Shown: positions 6,344 to 13,940 of the stretch, piece after piece
How the letters are laid out: every line of letters starts with the position of its first letter
Numbering within the stretch: the first letter of the stretch is position 1
From: Candidatus Fermentibacterota bacterium
GTDB taxonomy: Bacteria > Fermentibacterota > Fermentibacteria > Fermentibacterales > JCC-6
NCBI GenBank assembly: GCA_014728175.1
Contig: WJMA01000063.1
Location: forward strand, 1-34,412
DNA length: 34,412 bases
Direction of reading: 5' to 3'
Program-made: the position numbers and the translations under genes
Notes under the pieces: model-generated
Database searches by the model: none
Told to the model about the DNA's origin: nothing
What the model saw: only the letters and a program-made list of their open reading frames with translations

Positions 6344-6859
6344 ATGCGGAGTCTGCTGCTCCTCATGGCTTTGCTCGCTTGGGACTACACCCCCGCACAG
6401 CAGTATCTCGAGCTGCCCACCTTTCAATACTCCACCGAGCACACCTGCACGGCCTGTGAGGGCCGTAACTGGAACGCCCTGGTGGACGTCAGGGGAACAC
6501 TCGATCAGACCACCCATGTCGGTGAGGTAGAGGTAAAGCTCGTGCTGGATGACGAGGTCCTGGATTACTGGCGTCACAGCTTCGAGATGCCTCACAACGG
6601 TCTGCTGAGGCGATACTCGGAGACCGAGCTGGAACGGGCCGTTATGCTGGGTGAGCTCCCGGAATCCGACGATCCCGCCCTGTCGGAGTTCGTGGCGATT
6701 TACCGCAATCCCGCCCGGGTAGTGGGCATGGAGGAGATCGTGGGTGAGGAAGAAAGCGTATCCGAGGACGCCCTCTTCCTGGAGATGTTCGATGTGGTCC
6801 TGGCGGTTGACGTTTACGAGGGCCGGGTTCACGAGGTATCTCTGGAAGCGGTCCGATGA
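6344..6859 (+). CDS. Small exported protein of unknown function
   Basis: I do not recognise a family. The protein has 171 residues. The first 18 or so form a short signal peptide (MRSLLLLMALLAW, then a likely cleavage after PAQ). A CTAC pair (C35, C38) follows, which could bind metal or form a disulfide. The rest is acidic and probably beta-rich: it contains VDVRGTLDQ and VEVKLVLDDEVLDYW, and the tail is rich in Glu and Val. The start follows AAGGAAACGG at a good distance. The next gene starts 28 nt downstream on the same strand, so the two may be co-transcribed. Confidence 0.7.
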   Translation: MRSLLLLMALLAWDYTPAQQYLELPTFQYSTEHTCTACEGRNWNALVDVRGTLDQTTHVGEVEVKLVLDDEVLDYWRHSFEMPHNGLLRRYSETELERAVMLGELPESDDPALSEFVAIYRNPARVVGMEEIVGEEESVSEDALFLEMFDVVLAVDVYEGRVHEVSLEAVR

Positions 6860-6887
6860 GAACCAGATATCGAAGGGAGCCTTGAAG

Positions 6888-7511
6888 ATGTCCAACGGCC
6901 TGGATCACGTGTTCCAGCTGGAGAGCTATCTCTTCCGAAGGAAGATGTTCAAGATTTTCGGAGGGGCTTTTCACGTAAAGGACAGCAGCGGAGAGACGGT
7001 CATGTACTCCACGCAGAAAGCGTTCAAACTGCGTGAGGACATGAGTATATGGGCCAGCGAAAGAAAAGAGAGAGAGCTTCTCAAGATCAGGACGCCCCAG
7101 ATACTGGACTGGGGAGCCACATACTTCGTTACCGACTCCACCACGGGGGAAGAGGTGGGAGCCATCGCCCGCAAGGGTTTGAAATCAGTGGTACGAGACG
7201 AATGGAAGTTCCTATCCGCGGAGCAAGAGGAAATAGGAACCCTGACCGAGAGTGGTTGGGCCCGAGCGATAATAAGCAGGCTTATTAAGCTCGTACCTCA
7301 GAAGTACGTTATCCGATCCTCCGACGGCCGGGAGATAAGCACGGTAAAGCAGCATTTCAACATCTTCATACTCAAGTACACGATGGATATCCACGAACCT
7401 TACCCTCCCATAGATCGAAGGCTGATGATAGCCATGGGTATTCTCCTGTGCGCCATCGAGGGTCGCCAGGGCGAGGGCGGAAGCTATGGCTCCTACGGAG
7501 GCGACATCTAA
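6888..7511 (+). CDS. LURP-one-related / phospholipid scramblase-like (Tubby C-terminal fold) protein
   Basis: The protein has 207 residues. The sequence FGGAFHVKDSSGETVMYS near 21-38 matches the start of the LURP-one/Tubby-like beta barrel (typically 'F.V.D..G..V...'), as does the repeat-like ILDWGATYFVTDSTTGEEVG and the later KYVIRSSDGREI. Bacterial members such as YxjI have no settled function; binding of phosphoinositide-like lipids or membranes has been suggested for the fold. The ATG at 6888 was chosen because AAGGGAG lies 8 nt upstream and the family homology begins just after it. The frame is open upstream to 6744, but that part overlaps the previous gene. The C-terminus ends in a Gly/Ser/Tyr-rich tail. 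The stop is one base before the 146-bp inverted-repeat element. Confidence 0.72.
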   Translation: MSNGLDHVFQLESYLFRRKMFKIFGGAFHVKDSSGETVMYSTQKAFKLREDMSIWASERKERELLKIRTPQILDWGATYFVTDSTTGEEVGAIARKGLKSVVRDEWKFLSAEQEEIGTLTESGWARAIISRLIKLVPQKYVIRSSDGREISTVKQHFNIFILKYTMDIHEPYPPIDRRLMIAMGILLCAIEGRQGEGGSYGSYGGDI

Positions 7512-7512
7512 C

Positions 7513-7658
7513 GGGATGTTTTTCAAAAAACTCAAAAACATACCTTAGGATAGCCCGGGAGGTTTATAAATAAATAGGAACCCTTTGTGTTAAGCCAAGT
7601 TATAAGTTTCTTGTTTTTTTATAAACGTCCAGATCAGGCCTTTTTTGAAAAACGTCCC
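7513..7658. repeat. 146-bp AT-rich element with 18-bp terminal inverted repeats (REP/MITE-like)
   Basis: The left end (7513-7530, GGGATGTTTTTCAAAAAA) and the right end (7641-7658, TTTTTTGAAAAACGTCCC) are reverse complements at 17 of 18 positions. The single mismatch would be a G-U pair in RNA. The inside is much more AT-rich than the surrounding genome and contains no gene. The outer end GGGAYGTT is shared with the inverted repeat at 12339-12449. The element starts directly after the stop of the LURP-like gene and ends just before the promoter of the transposase-like gene. It could be a palindromic element mobilised by a RAYT-type transposase, or a terminator for the upstream gene. A shorter stem, ATGTTTTT/AAAAACAT, lies within its left end (7516-7541). 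Confidence 0.6.
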
Positions 7659-7664
7659 GGAAGG

Positions 7665-7699: not shown

Positions 7700-8689
7700 A
7701 TGCGCTCAAGACGCCGCCTCTTTCTGCCCGGAGCCCTGTACTACGTATTTTCCCGCGCGGCAGAGGGCAGAAGAATGGTTCGAACAGAGAAAAACGCCCA
7801 GGACCTCTTGAGGAGAATCGAAGCGGCAACCCGGGCAAGCAGCGTCAAAGTGTATGCCTGGGCCCTTACCGCAAAAGCCCTTCGAATCCTTCTACGAGCG
7901 GGGCGGGAGCCTCTTTCCATATTCGTGCGCAAAATTCTTTCGGGCCACGCCCTGCAAAGGCTGTATAGGCATGGAGAGGAGGGTCCCCTGGTTTCGGGAA
8001 GATACCGTTGCGTGCTGGTAGAGGAGCGGAGCTACTTCCTTCACCTGGTCCGAGACATACATGCGGCAGCGTTCTACGAGGGGGAGGTAAGCAGTCTGGA
8101 TCAGCTGGGGGGTTACGACTGGCATGGGCATCGCAACCTGACGGGAAAGAACCGGTGCGAATGGCAGGATACCTCGTACGTCCTGGGGAAGTTCTCATCC
8201 GACGTGTCCGAGGCCCGGAAGATGTACAGAGAATTCGTTCGAAACGCACCTCCTCCCGAGCGCCGGCCCGGGCTACACCAACCTTCGGCACCACCCTCCG
8301 GAGGAACCCACGATCCGAGGGTGCTGGGGAGCCGGGAGTTCACCATGTCCGTTCTGCGTAACCAAGAGGTAGAACCCAAGGGAACAGTAGGCTTTGCGGC
8401 CCGGAAGGCGGAGATGCTGGAGGAGCTGATGGTAAAGGTGTGCGATGTCACAGGGGTGAGCATGCACGAGATGTTGGGCCGAAGCAAGCGTCGAGCGGTC
8501 TCCAGTGCACGGGCCCTGGTCAGCTATGTTGGTGTTTTCCATCTGGGAATGACTTACAAAGCGGTTTCCGACGTGCTGGGAATCACTCCTTCCGCCGTTT
8601 ACATGGCTTCCGGAAGGGGCAGGGCTATGGTCGCCGCCAACGACGAGTTGAAAAGGCTGGTCTGCATATCTGAGCTCTGTGAGGTCTGA
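7700..8689 (+). CDS. RAYT/IS200-like transposase homologue with lost catalytic residues and a DnaA-IV-like C-terminal domain
   Basis: This 329-aa protein matches REP-associated tyrosine transposases along its N-terminal half: FLPGALYYVFSRA (8-20) for 'YPGALYHVTSRG', REPLS (69-73), SGRYRCVLVEERSYFLHLVR (99-118) and IH (120-121). In active members the HUH motif reads 'MPNHFHLLLR'. Here the aligned stretch is TAKALRILLR (57-66), so both histidines are replaced (A60, R62). The nucleophilic tyrosine of 'RYIHLNP' is D119 here. The C-terminal part (about 235-325) resembles the DnaA domain IV-like helix-turn-helix of longer RAYTs (SARALVSYVGVFHLGMTYKAVSDVLGITPSAVY split over 268-301). It probably binds DNA but cannot cut it. 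The start fits the family N-terminus. Base composition matches its neighbours, which suggests long residence. Confidence 0.82.
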   Translation: MRSRRRLFLPGALYYVFSRAAEGRRMVRTEKNAQDLLRRIEAATRASSVKVYAWALTAKALRILLRAGREPLSIFVRKILSGHALQRLYRHGEEGPLVSGRYRCVLVEERSYFLHLVRDIHAAAFYEGEVSSLDQLGGYDWHGHRNLTGKNRCEWQDTSYVLGKFSSDVSEARKMYREFVRNAPPPERRPGLHQPSAPPSGGTHDPRVLGSREFTMSVLRNQEVEPKGTVGFAARKAEMLEELMVKVCDVTGVSMHEMLGRSKRRAVSSARALVSYVGVFHLGMTYKAVSDVLGITPSAVYMASGRGRAMVAANDELKRLVCISELCEV

Positions 8690-9355: not shown

Positions 9356-12352
9356 ATGCTCGACAATCCTCTCGACAGGATAGTGGAGAAGAAGGGGTCC
9401 GAGCCCGTGCCCTTCTTCTCCCTCATGTCCAAGAGAGTGAGAAACGTCCTCCTGGTAAGCAGCCACTACGACTCCTACACCCTGGAGGAGGACGGCAGTT
9501 TCACCGAGCTCCTATTCAGTGAGTACCTGGAACTGAATCTCAGATATGCTCCCCGGATCGTAAGGGTCTCGACCGCAGGGGAAGCTCTCGATCTTCTCGG
9601 CAGGGAGGATTTCGATTTGGTGATCACCATGCTCCAGGTCGGGGAGATGAGGTTGAGGGAGTTCGGGAGCAAGGTGAAAAGGACCGCTCCGGGCATTCCG
9701 CTGATTCTCCTGGCTTATAGCGCCAGGGGGTTGGAGCACCTTCGCAGCGCAGGCGAGCTGGAGTTCGTGGACAGAGCCTTCACCTGGAGGGGGGAGGCAA
9801 AGCTGTTCCTGGCCATAGTGAAGTGTACTGAGGATCGCCTTAACGTGGCGCACGACACCTGGGTGGCTGGAGTGAAGAGCATAATTCTGGTGGAAGACTC
9901 GATCCACTTCGCCTCCTCCTACCTTCCCATGCTCTACACCGAGTTGATGCGACAGAACCAGGCGCTGATGAGTGACGGTGTTAACCAGATGCAGAAATTG
10001 ATGCGGATGCGAGCCAGGCCGAAGATACTGCTGGCCGACACCTACGAGGAAGGTATTCAGCTGTTCGAGGAGTACAGTGACCACCTCCTGGGCCTGATAG
10101 TGGACTCTCGATTTCCCAGGGAAGGAAGGGAGGATCCCCACGCGGGAAGGAAACTGGCCGAAATCGTCAGGAAGAAGAGACCGGACTGCGCCATACTCGT
10201 CCAATCTTACGAGGGCGAGAACCGCGCCTGGGCGGAAGAGCTGAACGCCGCCTTTATAAACAAGGGCTCCCCCACCCTTCTCAACGAGGTCAGGGAGTTC
10301 ATGCGACAGCAAATGGGATTTGGCGATTTCGTCTTTCGTACCCCAAAGGGGACCGAGGAGGCGCGAGCCGCGGATCTCAAGGATCTGTGCAACGCCTTGG
10401 CCTCGGTATCCGACCGGTCGCTCGTCTACCACGCCAAACGCAACGACTTCTCTACATGGCTGATGGCCCGCACCGAGTTCGAGCTGGCCAAGGCCCTCAG
10501 ACCACAGAGGGTGGAGGACTTCGAGTCGGTGGACCACCTGAGATCCTACCTGTTGTCGGAGGTAAGGAGGTGGCTGAGGCGGTTCAAGGCGGGCGAGGTG
10601 GAGGAGTACTCCAAGGACTCCTTCGGCCCGGGAACCGAGTTCGTCAGGATAGGCCAGGGCTCACTGGGTGGGAAGGGAAGGGGTCTGGCTTACATGCATT
10701 CACTCATGCACCGGTACCGGATCTCCGACCGGTTCCCGGAGGTGAGGATATTCGTTCCCCCCACCGCGGTGCTGTCGACGGACGTCTTCGAAGATTTCAT
10801 GAGCGACAATCAGCTGTACGAGTTCGTATTCGAGAAGGAACGGGAAGTGGGCGACGACCCTTCGGCCAGAGACCAAAGAGTGACCGAGCGATTTTTGAGA
10901 GCCGACCTGCCCGGCTGTGCCAAGGATGCACTGCACACCTTCCTGGAGAAGGTGGATTATCCGATCGCGGTGAGATCCTCCAGTCTCCTGGAGGATTCCC
11001 CTACCGTTCCCTATGCGGGTGTTTACCACACCTATATGCTTCCAAACGATGCCTCGACGTGGCAGCGAAGAATGGTGGAGCTATGCAGGGCGATTAAGTT
11101 GGTCTACGCCTCCACCTATCTCAGCGATTCCGTGGGTTACATGGAGTCCACCCCCAACAGGCTGGAGGACGAGAGAATGGCCGTGGTGATCCAACGGCTG
11201 GTGGGCAGGCAGTACGGCGACCATTTCTACCCTCACGTATCCGGAGTAGTCCGAAGCTTCAACTTCTACCCTCTCCGGGGAACCGACGCCGAGGAAGGCG
11301 TAGCCTCGGTCGCCCTGGGGCTCGGTAGAAAGGTGGTGGAGGGGGGCAGGTGCGTCCGTTTCTCGCCCCGCCATCCCGGTAGGCTCTACCAGGCATCAAC
11401 TCCAGAGAAGCTGGTTAGGAGTTCCCAGAGAAAATTCTTCGCGTTGAAAATGGGGAGTGATGACAGGGTAGATCGATCCGGCGAGAAAGCCTACCTGGAC
11501 GAGTTGGATCTGGATGTGGCGGAGAGAGACGGCACCCTACTGCCCAGCGCCTCTGTCTACTCGCCCGAAGAGGACAGATTGTTCGAGGGTTTGCACCGCA
11601 ACGGCCCGAGAGTGGTCAGCATGGCGGGAGTTCTCCAGGGTGAATACTTTCCGCTTCCGGAGGTTCTGGATTTTCTGGTCAGGGCTGGAAAGGCTAGTTT
11701 TTCCAGCGAGGTGGAGATAGAGTTCGCGGCCAACATCGAACCCGGGACCAATGGCACTCGGGGGGAGCTGGGCTACCTTCAGATAAGGCCCATCAGTCTA
11801 CGGGACGATGCCGGCAGGGACTTGGAAGATGTAGACCGGGAGGACGCGCTGTGCATCTCGGATAACGCTCTGGGCAGCGGCTCGATAGAGAACATTCACG
11901 ATATTGTTTTCGTTGACACAGACACTTTCGACAGGGACGCCAGCCGCCGGGTGGCGCAACAGGTGGGATCCCTGAATGCAAGGCTTAGGAAAGACGAGAG
12001 GAACTGCATACTGGTGGGTCCGGGCAGGTGGGGCTCAGCCGACAGCTGGTTGGGCATTCCGGTCAAGTGGGAGCAAATATCCACCGCCAGATGCATCGTG
12101 GAAACCTCACTGGCCGGAGTGAGTATCGCTCCCTCCCAGGGTACGCATTTCTTCCAGAACGTGACTTCACTGGGTATTGGCTACTTCTCTCTGGACGGAG
12201 AGGAGAGCTATCTGGATACCGAATGGCTGCGCAACCAAAAGCCGTTGGAGTCGACCGAGTACGTGAAGCTCCTGCGAGTGGAGCAGTCGCTCTCGGTGTA
12301 CGTTGACCGCCGTCACAACCTGGGAGCAATAATAATCAAGGGACGTTCCTAA
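9356..12352 (+). CDS. PEP-synthase-like protein: receiver-like N-terminal domains fused to a PPDK_N nucleotide-binding domain
   Basis: The protein has 998 residues. Two receiver-like folds come first: one at about 29-160 (VLLVSSHYDS, then FDLVITM near 86-92), and one at about 174-320 (IILVEDS near 176-182, LIVDSRFP near 247-254). The middle contains the nucleotide-binding part of PEP synthase/PPDK: GSLGGKGRGLAYM (435-447) and AVRSSSLLEDSPTVPYAGVY (538-557), with the key Arg at 540. The phosphohistidine domain ('GGxTSHAAI') and the PEP/pyruvate TIM barrel are absent. The C-terminus has its own conserved-looking block, VGPGRWGS...GIPVKWEQI, and SQGTHFFQN. Similar 'PEP/pyruvate-binding' proteins occur in several phyla without a known role; phosphorylation of a partner is only a guess. 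The start has GGAGG 5 nt upstream. The last residues and the stop lie in a 31-bp inverted repeat. Confidence 0.82.
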   Translation: MLDNPLDRIVEKKGSEPVPFFSLMSKRVRNVLLVSSHYDSYTLEEDGSFTELLFSEYLELNLRYAPRIVRVSTAGEALDLLGREDFDLVITMLQVGEMRLREFGSKVKRTAPGIPLILLAYSARGLEHLRSAGELEFVDRAFTWRGEAKLFLAIVKCTEDRLNVAHDTWVAGVKSIILVEDSIHFASSYLPMLYTELMRQNQALMSDGVNQMQKLMRMRARPKILLADTYEEGIQLFEEYSDHLLGLIVDSRFPREGREDPHAGRKLAEIVRKKRPDCAILVQSYEGENRAWAEELNAAFINKGSPTLLNEVREFMRQQMGFGDFVFRTPKGTEEARAADLKDLCNALASVSDRSLVYHAKRNDFSTWLMARTEFELAKALRPQRVEDFESVDHLRSYLLSEVRRWLRRFKAGEVEEYSKDSFGPGTEFVRIGQGSLGGKGRGLAYMHSLMHRYRISDRFPEVRIFVPPTAVLSTDVFEDFMSDNQLYEFVFEKEREVGDDPSARDQRVTERFLRADLPGCAKDALHTFLEKVDYPIAVRSSSLLEDSPTVPYAGVYHTYMLPNDASTWQRRMVELCRAIKLVYASTYLSDSVGYMESTPNRLEDERMAVVIQRLVGRQYGDHFYPHVSGVVRSFNFYPLRGTDAEEGVASVALGLGRKVVEGGRCVRFSPRHPGRLYQASTPEKLVRSSQRKFFALKMGSDDRVDRSGEKAYLDELDLDVAERDGTLLPSASVYSPEEDRLFEGLHRNGPRVVSMAGVLQGEYFPLPEVLDFLVRAGKASFSSEVEIEFAANIEPGTNGTRGELGYLQIRPISLRDDAGRDLEDVDREDALCISDNALGSGSIENIHDIVFVDTDTFDRDASRRVAQQVGSLNARLRKDERNCILVGPGRWGSADSWLGIPVKWEQISTARCIVETSLAGVSIAPSQGTHFFQNVTSLGIGYFSLDGEESYLDTEWLRNQKPLESTEYVKLLRVEQSLSVYVDRRHNLGAIIIKGRS

Positions 12353-12449
12353 ACCTTTTTTACTTTTCGGCATTACTTGTGGTCAATTAGGCTGTCAACG
12401 CCAGGTCTTAATTCGCTGCGAAAAGTAAAAAAGGTTTAGGAACGTCCCT
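12339..12449. repeat. 111-bp element with perfect 31-bp inverted repeats between convergent genes (REP/MITE-like, possibly a bidirectional terminator)
   Basis: The arms at 12339-12369 and 12419-12449 are exact reverse complements over 31 bases, separated by 49 bases. The left arm begins AGGGACGTTCC and contains a run of six Ts (12356-12361). The stop codon and last three sense codons of the PEP-synthase-like gene fall within or across the left arm; the glutamate dehydrogenase stop is 4 bases beyond the right arm. The outer GGGACGTT matches the ends of the element at 7513-7658. As RNA from either strand it folds into a long hairpin, so it could terminate both genes. Its length and perfection exceed a usual terminator, and the shared end sequence argues for a mobile palindrome. 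Confidence 0.75.
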
Positions 12450-12453
12450 CCTT

Positions 12454-13815
12454 TTAGACGACGCCCTGGGCGATTATCGCCTCTGCTACCTTCCGGAAGC
12501 CCGCAGCATTAGCGCCCAGCACGTAGTTGCCTGGCTGGCCGTACTGCTCGGCCGCGTCGGCCGCCATGGCGTGGATGTTTACCATGATCTCGTGGAGGCG
12601 GGAGTCCACCTCTTTGCGGGTCCAGCTGCTGAACGCGGCGTTCTGGGCCATCTCCAGCCCGGAAGTCGCCACGCCACCGGCGTTAGCGGCCTTCCCCGGA
12701 CCGTAGAGGATCTTTTCCTGCAGGAAGACTTCCACTCCGGCCGGCACGGTGGGCATGTTCGCACCCTCGCTGACCACGTAGACGCCGTTGTTTACGAGGT
12801 TCTGGGCGTCCTTCTCGTTTATCTCGTTCTGGGTGGCGCTGGGGAACGCGCAGTCGGCCTTGACGTCCCACTTGGGATCGTAGTCGGTGGGCTTGTCAAA
12901 GGCGTTCCACTCGGTGTACTGGGCACTGGAGTACTTCTCCACGTACTCCTTTATTCTGCCCCTCTGTATGTTCTTGAGGTCCATTACGAAGGCCAGCTTG
13001 TCGCGGTCTATGCCTTCCTCGTCGTATATGAATCCGCTGGAGTCGGAAAGGGTTACCACCTTCCCTCCCAGATCCAGCAGCTTCTCCGTGGTAAACTGGG
13101 CTACGTTGCCGGAGCCCGAGACCAGACAGGTCTTGCCCTCCAGGGTTTCATTGCGGGTCTTCAGCATCTCCTGGGCGAAGTAAACGGAGCCATAACCTGT
13201 TGCCTCCGGTCTGACGAGGCTTCCGCCGTAGGAGAGGCCCTTTCCGGTGAGAACGCCGGCCCACTCGTTGACCAGCTTTTTGTACATACCGAACAGGTAG
13301 CCGATCTCGCGTCCACCCACACCTATATCTCCGGCGGGAATGTCGGTGTTGGGGCCGATATGCCTGAACAGCTCGGACATGAAGCTCTGACAGAACCTCA
13401 TTACCTCGTGGTCAGACTTACCCTTGGGATCGAAATCGGAGCCGCCCTTGCCGCCTCCAATTGGTAGGCCGGTCAGGGCGTTCTTGAACACCTGCTCGAA
13501 ACCCAGGAACTTGAGGATGCCCAGGTTGACGGAGGGATGGAATCTGAGGCCGCCCTTGTAAGGGCCGATGGCATTGTTGAACTCCACGCGGAAGCCGCGG
13601 TTGACCTGGATCTCCCCGTCGTCCGTGGTCCAGGGGACCCTGAACATCAAGACTCTGTCCGGTTCCACGACTCTCTCCACGATCTTGTACCTGCGATACT
13701 CGGGATGCTTATCCAGAACCGGTTCCAGGGACTCCAGGACCTCCCTGACCGCCTGATGGAACTCCGGCTGGTCGGGATCCTTGTTGACAACTTCCTGATA
13801 GATTTCCTCCAGCAT
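12454..13815 (-). CDS. gdhA: NADP-type glutamate dehydrogenase, hexameric (class I)
   Basis: Interconverts 2-oxoglutarate plus ammonium plus NADPH with glutamate; 453 aa with the start used here. Landmarks are YKGGLRFHPS (86-95) and GGGKGGSDFDPKGKS (120-134) with the catalytic lysine at 123, PAGDIGVGGREIG (160-172) with the catalytic aspartate at 163, and the Rossmann loop SGSGNVA (233-239). LSDSSG near 256-261 follows the second strand, as in NADP-dependent members. The frame is open to 13923, but family homology begins at MLEEIYQEV (13815), which is preceded by a strong GAGAGGAGG. The extra 36 codons are therefore probably leader. It diverges from nfnAB, which also handles NADPH. Confidence 0.95.
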   Translation of the reverse strand: MLEEIYQEVVNKDPDQPEFHQAVREVLESLEPVLDKHPEYRRYKIVERVVEPDRVLMFRVPWTTDDGEIQVNRGFRVEFNNAIGPYKGGLRFHPSVNLGILKFLGFEQVFKNALTGLPIGGGKGGSDFDPKGKSDHEVMRFCQSFMSELFRHIGPNTDIPAGDIGVGGREIGYLFGMYKKLVNEWAGVLTGKGLSYGGSLVRPEATGYGSVYFAQEMLKTRNETLEGKTCLVSGSGNVAQFTTEKLLDLGGKVVTLSDSSGFIYDEEGIDRDKLAFVMDLKNIQRGRIKEYVEKYSSAQYTEWNAFDKPTDYDPKWDVKADCAFPSATQNEINEKDAQNLVNNGVYVVSEGANMPTVPAGVEVFLQEKILYGPGKAANAGGVATSGLEMAQNAAFSSWTRKEVDSRLHEIMVNIHAMAADAAEQYGQPGNYVLGANAAGFRKVAEAIIAQGVV

Positions 13816-13877
13816 GGGTCCAAGGCCTCCTCTCAGTGGATTGCCTTCCTTGCGGGTATATCCTACACCGAGACAGT

Positions 13878-13907
13878 AGCCTATTCCTTCCCAAGGTCTT
13901 TCGTCAA
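13878..13907 (-). promoter_or_regulatory. Possible gdhA promoter
   Basis: On the minus strand TTGACG (13907-13902) and TAGGCT (13883-13878) are 18 bp apart. The -35 box matches consensus at five of six positions; the -10 box is poor. A start near 13871 would give a leader of about 56 nt before the ATG at 13815, which also fits the choice of the shorter gdhA start. Confidence 0.4.
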
Positions 13908-13940
13908 GCTCGGGCAATGTCATTCATTTGCGGGGCAATC

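Follow-up and report, generated by a model that had tools for sequence, protein, structure and literature searches.

A perfect palindrome between two convergent genes of a Candidatus Fermentibacterota bacterium is probably a non-autonomous dimer of RAYT-type transposon ends

The window, i.e., the whole stretch of DNA that was analyzed (34,412 nucleotides; contig WJMA01000063.1 of the Candidatus Fermentibacterota assembly GCA_014728175.1), contains two convergent genes encoding a PEP-synthase-like protein and a dehydrogenase, and a palindromic element is located where the two genes meet (Table 1). The original prediction described a perfect 31-bp inverted repeat with a 49-nt centre, which holds the TAA of the upstream gene within its left arm and nearly touches the stop of the convergent gene. 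All of these features were confirmed: the arms, 31 nt each and 49 nt apart, were 100% complementary, the TAA was found inside the left arm, and the stop of the dehydrogenase gene was located 4 bp beyond the outer end of the right arm. By chance, approximately 2e-12 such arm pairs were expected per window. The contribution of the element to the upstream open reading frame consisted of the last two bases of a Lys codon, Gly-Arg-Ser and the stop codon. When folded as RNA, the element gave -56.6 kcal/mol, compared with -28.8 +/- 3.7 for shuffled sequences (z = -7.5), and an Rfam scan of the window returned no match.

Table 1. Coordinates of the palindromic element, its neighbours in the window and the RAYT-bearing element of the same genome
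Feature	Coordinates	Strand	Remarks
Second family element, R-R dimer with a degenerate dimer nested inside	7512-7659	.	
Nested degenerate dimer	7558-7630		arms 7558-7580 and 7608-7630
RAYT paralogue	7700-8689	+	329 aa, intact frame
Upstream gene, PEP-synthase-like protein	9356-12352	+	PPDK_N domain, 998 aa
Complete element of the TIR family, a compact L-L dimer	12339-12449	.	111 bp
Left arm, L-type end	12339-12369	+	A + GGGACGTT core + CCTAAACCTTTTTTACTTTTCG; model R1, 31.1 bits, E 5e-7
Stop codon TAA of the PEP-synthase-like gene, lying in the left arm	12350-12352	+	frame GGA CGT TCC TAA = GRS*
Centre of the element	12370-12418	.	49 nt
Right arm, second L-type end	12419-12449	-	inverted copy without mismatch; model R1, 31.1 bits, E 5e-7
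Convergent gene, Glu/Leu/Phe/Val-type (glutamate) dehydrogenase	12454-13923	-	489 aa
L-L element with RAYT gene	C65:108362-109507		1146 bp
Intact RAYT gene inside the C65 element	C65:108410-109408		333 aa, Y1_Tnp domain

When the genome from which the window comes (2.6 Mb, 67 contigs) was searched with a 191-bp query, 27 matching stretches were obtained, and no further copy of the 49-nt centre was found by this search. The closest relatives of this genome that bear a name are Candidatus Aegiribacteria, and its phylum was assigned on this basis. The motif GGGACGTTCCTAAA, allowing at most two mismatches, occurred 60 times in this genome compared with 18 times for the reversed control, and the exact pattern GGGACGTTYNTAAA occurred 31 times there and not once in 29 other genomes, which comprised relatives and more distant ones. 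The family was then inventoried with two sequence models of its ends, R1 and R2, and the sorted hits (E < ~0.2, the weakest being doubtful) fell into 60 places. Single ends account for 38 of these, and the remainder comprises 15 L-R dimers, five R-R dimers, one compact L-L dimer and one L-L element that carries a RAYT gene. The window palindrome is thus the sole compact L-L dimer. The earlier proposal of an inserted element, for which a genome search had been suggested as a check, was borne out in that the element belongs to a multi-copy family and is not a single-copy plain terminator.

Two types of ends were distinguished, and they were about equally common. The L ends consist of a purine followed by GGGACGTTCC, with A or G preceding the core in all 33 cases, and the R ends consist of C followed by GGGACGTT[T/C] (GGGACGTTY), with C preceding the core in 31 of 31. 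The L-R dimers span 58-140 bp. The single ends lacked a typical REP hairpin; by eye, no self-complementary stem was found in them, and GTAG was absent. REPINs, the REP dimers that Bertels and Rainey wrote of in 2011, are said to be moved by RAYTs. The window element resembles them as a RAYT-linked, extragenic unit of about 100 bp in which two inverted copies form one hairpin, but its single arm is no 20-40 bp palindrome with a GTAG tag, and the family has tens of copies rather than hundreds. The second family element in the window begins directly after the stop of an open reading frame at 6744-7511.

Upon comparison of the arms, the L-R dimers (seven examined) matched at 11-20 of the first 31 positions, whereas the window arms matched at all 31. 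Among the R-R dimers, the arms of the C11 copy were perfect over 30 positions in a row, those of C42 were nearly perfect apart from a 4-nt bulge, and 24 positions matched in the third, C43. Since the C11 and C42 copies share this property with the window element and the L-R dimers do not, arm perfection goes along with like ends, and recent arrival or strong selection, to which the perfect arms had originally been attributed, is not needed. The arms of the window element are of the sub-type CCTTTTTTACTTTT, of which one other end is known (C56:13086), and they differ in letters from the ends of the RAYT element on C65 (CCTTTTGAACTAT). Their agreement also extends past the family end to a flanking A and two inner bases (CG). 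This extension, as well as the near perfection of C11 and C42, would suit a palindrome made by the host, in which an imperfect pair of ends was perfected by template switching or gene conversion and no transposition took place. However, such a process accounts for the perfection only and leaves the dispersed family and the empty sites of relatives unexplained, and we regard it as improbable.

The other L-L element contains the candidate mover. Its RAYT gene is flanked by perfect 29-bp L-type inverted repeats, and the encoded protein keeps the HUH motif N59-H60-L-H62 and the catalytic Y119. The protein scored 37.7 bits against Pfam Y1_Tnp (cut-off 23) and 55 bits against NCBIfam REP_Tyr_transpos, which is below the cut-off of 80. 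In the AlphaFold model (mean pLDDT 87), the solved structure closest to the predicted fold was the complex of TnpA-REP with a REP hairpin (4er8, E 2e-6), and the C-terminal part matched the DNA-binding domain of DnaA on DnaA-box DNA (3pvp). An alignment profile of 71 relatives matched DnaA structures with E-values of 6e-12 to 5e-7, and Bac_DnaA_C was matched by 52 of 77 aligned members; the C65 protein itself gave no Bac_DnaA_C match at E <= 0.1. RAYT relatives were present in 27 of 42 genomes in the phylum, and most of those examined sit between their own inverted ends, which often start with GGGG[AT]CG. No match was found in two small phyla at E 1e-20, and no relative was found on viral contigs. 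The C65 RAYT, whose flanking ends are of the type seen in the repeats, is most likely the enzyme that spread them through the window's genome.

No intact RAYT was found between R-type ends. Inward-facing R-type ends were observed at C17:47879-50327 (2.4 kb), C51:23203-24043 (0.84 kb) and C61:25297-25833 (0.54 kb), and these pairs could be decayed autonomous R-R elements. We also found a RAYT paralogue with a DnaA_C-like tail in the window itself, where it begins 41 bp after the R-R element. The HUH residues (H60, H62) and Y119 are replaced in this protein, which is alone in this among the 77 aligned relatives and may have been domesticated as a DNA-binding protein. Another RAYT, the third and a shorter one with 208 residues, is located at C61:85978-86418 of G000 (L052) between its own inverted ends, GGGGACGGGGGAAT..., which differ internally from the GGGACGTT family, and the DnaA-like tail was not found in it.

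Alternatively, the palindrome could be a MITE that derives from an ordinary insertion sequence of the DD(E/D) type, or one that arose by internal deletion, and could have been moved by double-strand cut-and-paste. The size, the inverted ends and the absence of coding capacity are in keeping with such an origin, as is the RAYT held by the one other L-L element. Nevertheless, no target-site duplication was seen by eye at the window copy or the other dimers inspected, the interior was by eye unlike that of the RAYT element, and the enzyme found between such ends was of the HUH/Tyr kind only, in a search confined to this transposase family. We therefore consider a MITE very unlikely.

The positions of the copies relative to genes, which were scored with a simple codon-usage gene caller, revealed a bias toward gene ends. 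Convergent genes flank 19 copies, genes of the same direction 26 and divergent genes eight, and seven were not scorable. Element edges that face a stop were within 10 bp of it or overlapped it in 39 of 50 cases, compared with 3 of 26 for edges that face a start (Fisher p = 2e-8). In 13 cases, that of the window and 12 others, the edge extends exactly 14 bp into the gene, since the sequence of the end is GGA CGT TCC TAA, and proteins with an element-made stop end in -GRS (usual), -GRF, -GRC or -GRT. The GRS-type frame was used by 13 of 20 overlapping edges (p = 0.004 against one third), a preference that could stem from selection favouring short tails. In the outer flanks of the copies, G was scarce (12-14%) and A and C were abundant. 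This composition may belong to gene ends in general or to the target that the element prefers. According to Di Nocera et al. 2013 (PMC3733652), REPs too occur at gene 3' ends and supply stop codons.

The same convergent gene pair is kept in several relatives. In five of them, 58, 58, 72, 75 and 81 bp lie between the stops, the repeat is absent from the junction, and a GC-rich terminator-like hairpin is present. The absence of the repeat supports, from sequence comparison, the reading of these junctions as distant empty sites and of the window element as an insertion. The PEP-synthase-like proteins of four of these relatives are 54-56% identical to that of the window and that of the fifth (L146) is 39% identical, so the exact target is not reconstructible. 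It had been suggested that the insertion set the present C-terminus of the PEP-synthase-like protein. This was upheld in part: the element does supply the present end, but the closest homologues, which have no repeat, terminate at nearly the same place, only a few residues away (for example, GIINKSRT* and GTIQLT* versus AIIIKGRS*). The insertion would therefore have exchanged only the variable last 2-5 residues. In L140 (G002, another genus of the family), a related type of TIR end, GGGGACGTTCTCAAGTTCATCAAGTGCG, lies reversed at the same junction beside a GC-rich terminator-like hairpin, and in L054 a different long palindrome is found there. These two cases suggest that the junction is a tolerated landing spot.

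The hairpins of the relatives also bear on the possibility that the palindrome is a bidirectional terminator or an mRNA 3'-end stabiliser for both genes, kept by selection whatever the origin of its sequence. The location between convergent stops and the very stable hairpin speak for such a role, and so does the terminator-like hairpin that the relatives have at the junction and the window does not. However, an intrinsic terminator is marked by a GC-rich stem, a short loop and a U-tract, and the window element has none of these: its stem is AT-rich, its centre measures 49 nt, and the + strand after the stem (TCCTTTTAG) has no U run. Consensus scans gave no terminator at the element, and ends of the family lie at about 60 places, some of which face starts or lie between divergent genes. 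GC-rich short-loop hairpins numbered one in a 116-kb sample of the window's genome, compared with two after shuffling and approximately five per 100 kb in the relatives. Because such hairpins are almost absent from the sampled genome, their absence at this junction says nothing about the insertion, and the idea that the element destroyed a native terminator was rejected. Taken together, we think that selection for termination or stabilization is a rather unlikely explanation of the palindrome. At other junctions of convergent genes in the window (8689/8691, 26897/26900 and 31566/31568), the two genes were observed to abut or overlap. Together with the near absence of such hairpins, this suggests that the genome may make little use of intrinsic termination.

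The C65 element closely recalls the TIRtrons, in which TIRYT transposases accompany dispersed families of TIR repeats according to Di Nocera et al. 2013 (PMC3733652). The likeness comprises a RAYT-like gene between long TIRs, which was found on C65, TIRs that are also dispersed as singles and dimers, a GGGG-type motif at the start of the TIR, and a HUH/Tyr enzyme. In contrast to what is described there, the core is [A/G/C]GGGACGTT and not GGGGWSAS, the ends fall into two distinct types in which a strict base precedes the core, and they contain a 9-bp period. The sequences GGGGACGT and AGGGACGT have G, not A, as the seventh base; in the same text, GGGGWSAS is stated for some TIRs only and is hence not defining for all. 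Quentin et al. 2018 (PMC6006769) described TnpA-REP subclass 2.1 as a Y1 domain with a Bac_DnaA_C-type C-terminal domain, and this subclass likewise combines a DnaA_C-like tail with TIRs rather than REP hairpins. Judged from its sequence and predicted structure, the C65 element appears to match a TIRtron, and its enzyme the subclass 2.1 kind.

We consider it highly probable that the window palindrome is a non-autonomous mobile repeat, namely a compact dimer of two L-type TIRs of a RAYT-type transposon (TIRtron). In the mechanism that we propose, the two arms would form a long hairpin when the region is single-stranded at the replication fork, and this folded single strand would be the substrate of the transposase. 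The HUH/Tyr domain of the C65 RAYT would nick and rejoin at the GGGACG ends, its DnaA-domain-IV-like tail would aid recognition by reading the paired TIR arm, and L-L, L-R and R-R units alike would be copied or moved without target duplication, which would make the family mobile. Landing at this junction, immediately beyond the point where conservation of the PEP-synthase-like protein ends, would have created the new stop codon between the two convergent genes, and insertions would persist mainly where harm is small, at gene 3' ends. At the RNA level, each of the two transcripts would end in the 31-bp stem, which may stabilise them; alternatively, it may be cleaved by RNase III.

The target of the DnaA-like tail is left open for subclass 2.1 (PMC6006769). 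In the present analysis, a 9-bp internal repeat emerged when TIRs of the phylum were pooled. In 16 non-redundant Fermentibacterota RAYT TIRs, positions matched at lag 9 in 52% of cases compared with 27% expected (z = 8.4), with a weak excess at neighbouring lags; the period was first noticed by eye and then tested on the same ends. The TIRs of enzymes thought to be tail-less gave no lag-9 signal, which carries little weight with three TIRs, two of them classed by protein length. The TIRs of other phyla had no peak at lag 9 but one at lag 7 or 8, so a universal 9-bp iteron rule was rejected; this leaves two readings, namely that each enzyme group has its own spacing or that the interpretation as DnaA-like 9-mers is wrong. 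We tentatively suggest, as a possibility with clearly less than even chances, that a TIR consists of a GGGACG cutting core and two 9-bp iterons, and that the tail reads the 9-mers like DnaA boxes. If true, the window palindrome would be a minimal mobile unit with two cores and four iterons, and the DNA-binding domain of a replication initiator would have been captured to mark transposon ends.

The palindrome belongs to a known kind of element that is new for the Fermentibacterota lineage as far as our literature search reached, and the excerpted text of Di Nocera et al. 2013 (PMC3733652) does not mention the phylum. As evident from these results, a little-studied and mostly uncultured phylum contains a complete RAYT/TIR system with an intact transposase, dispersed ends, homodimers and heterodimers, and a non-catalytic paralogue, and 13 gene ends have their stop codon inside a mobile repeat. 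What the DnaA-like tail recognizes becomes accessible to a simple binding test through the 9-bp iterons and through the fixed base that precedes the core in each end type.
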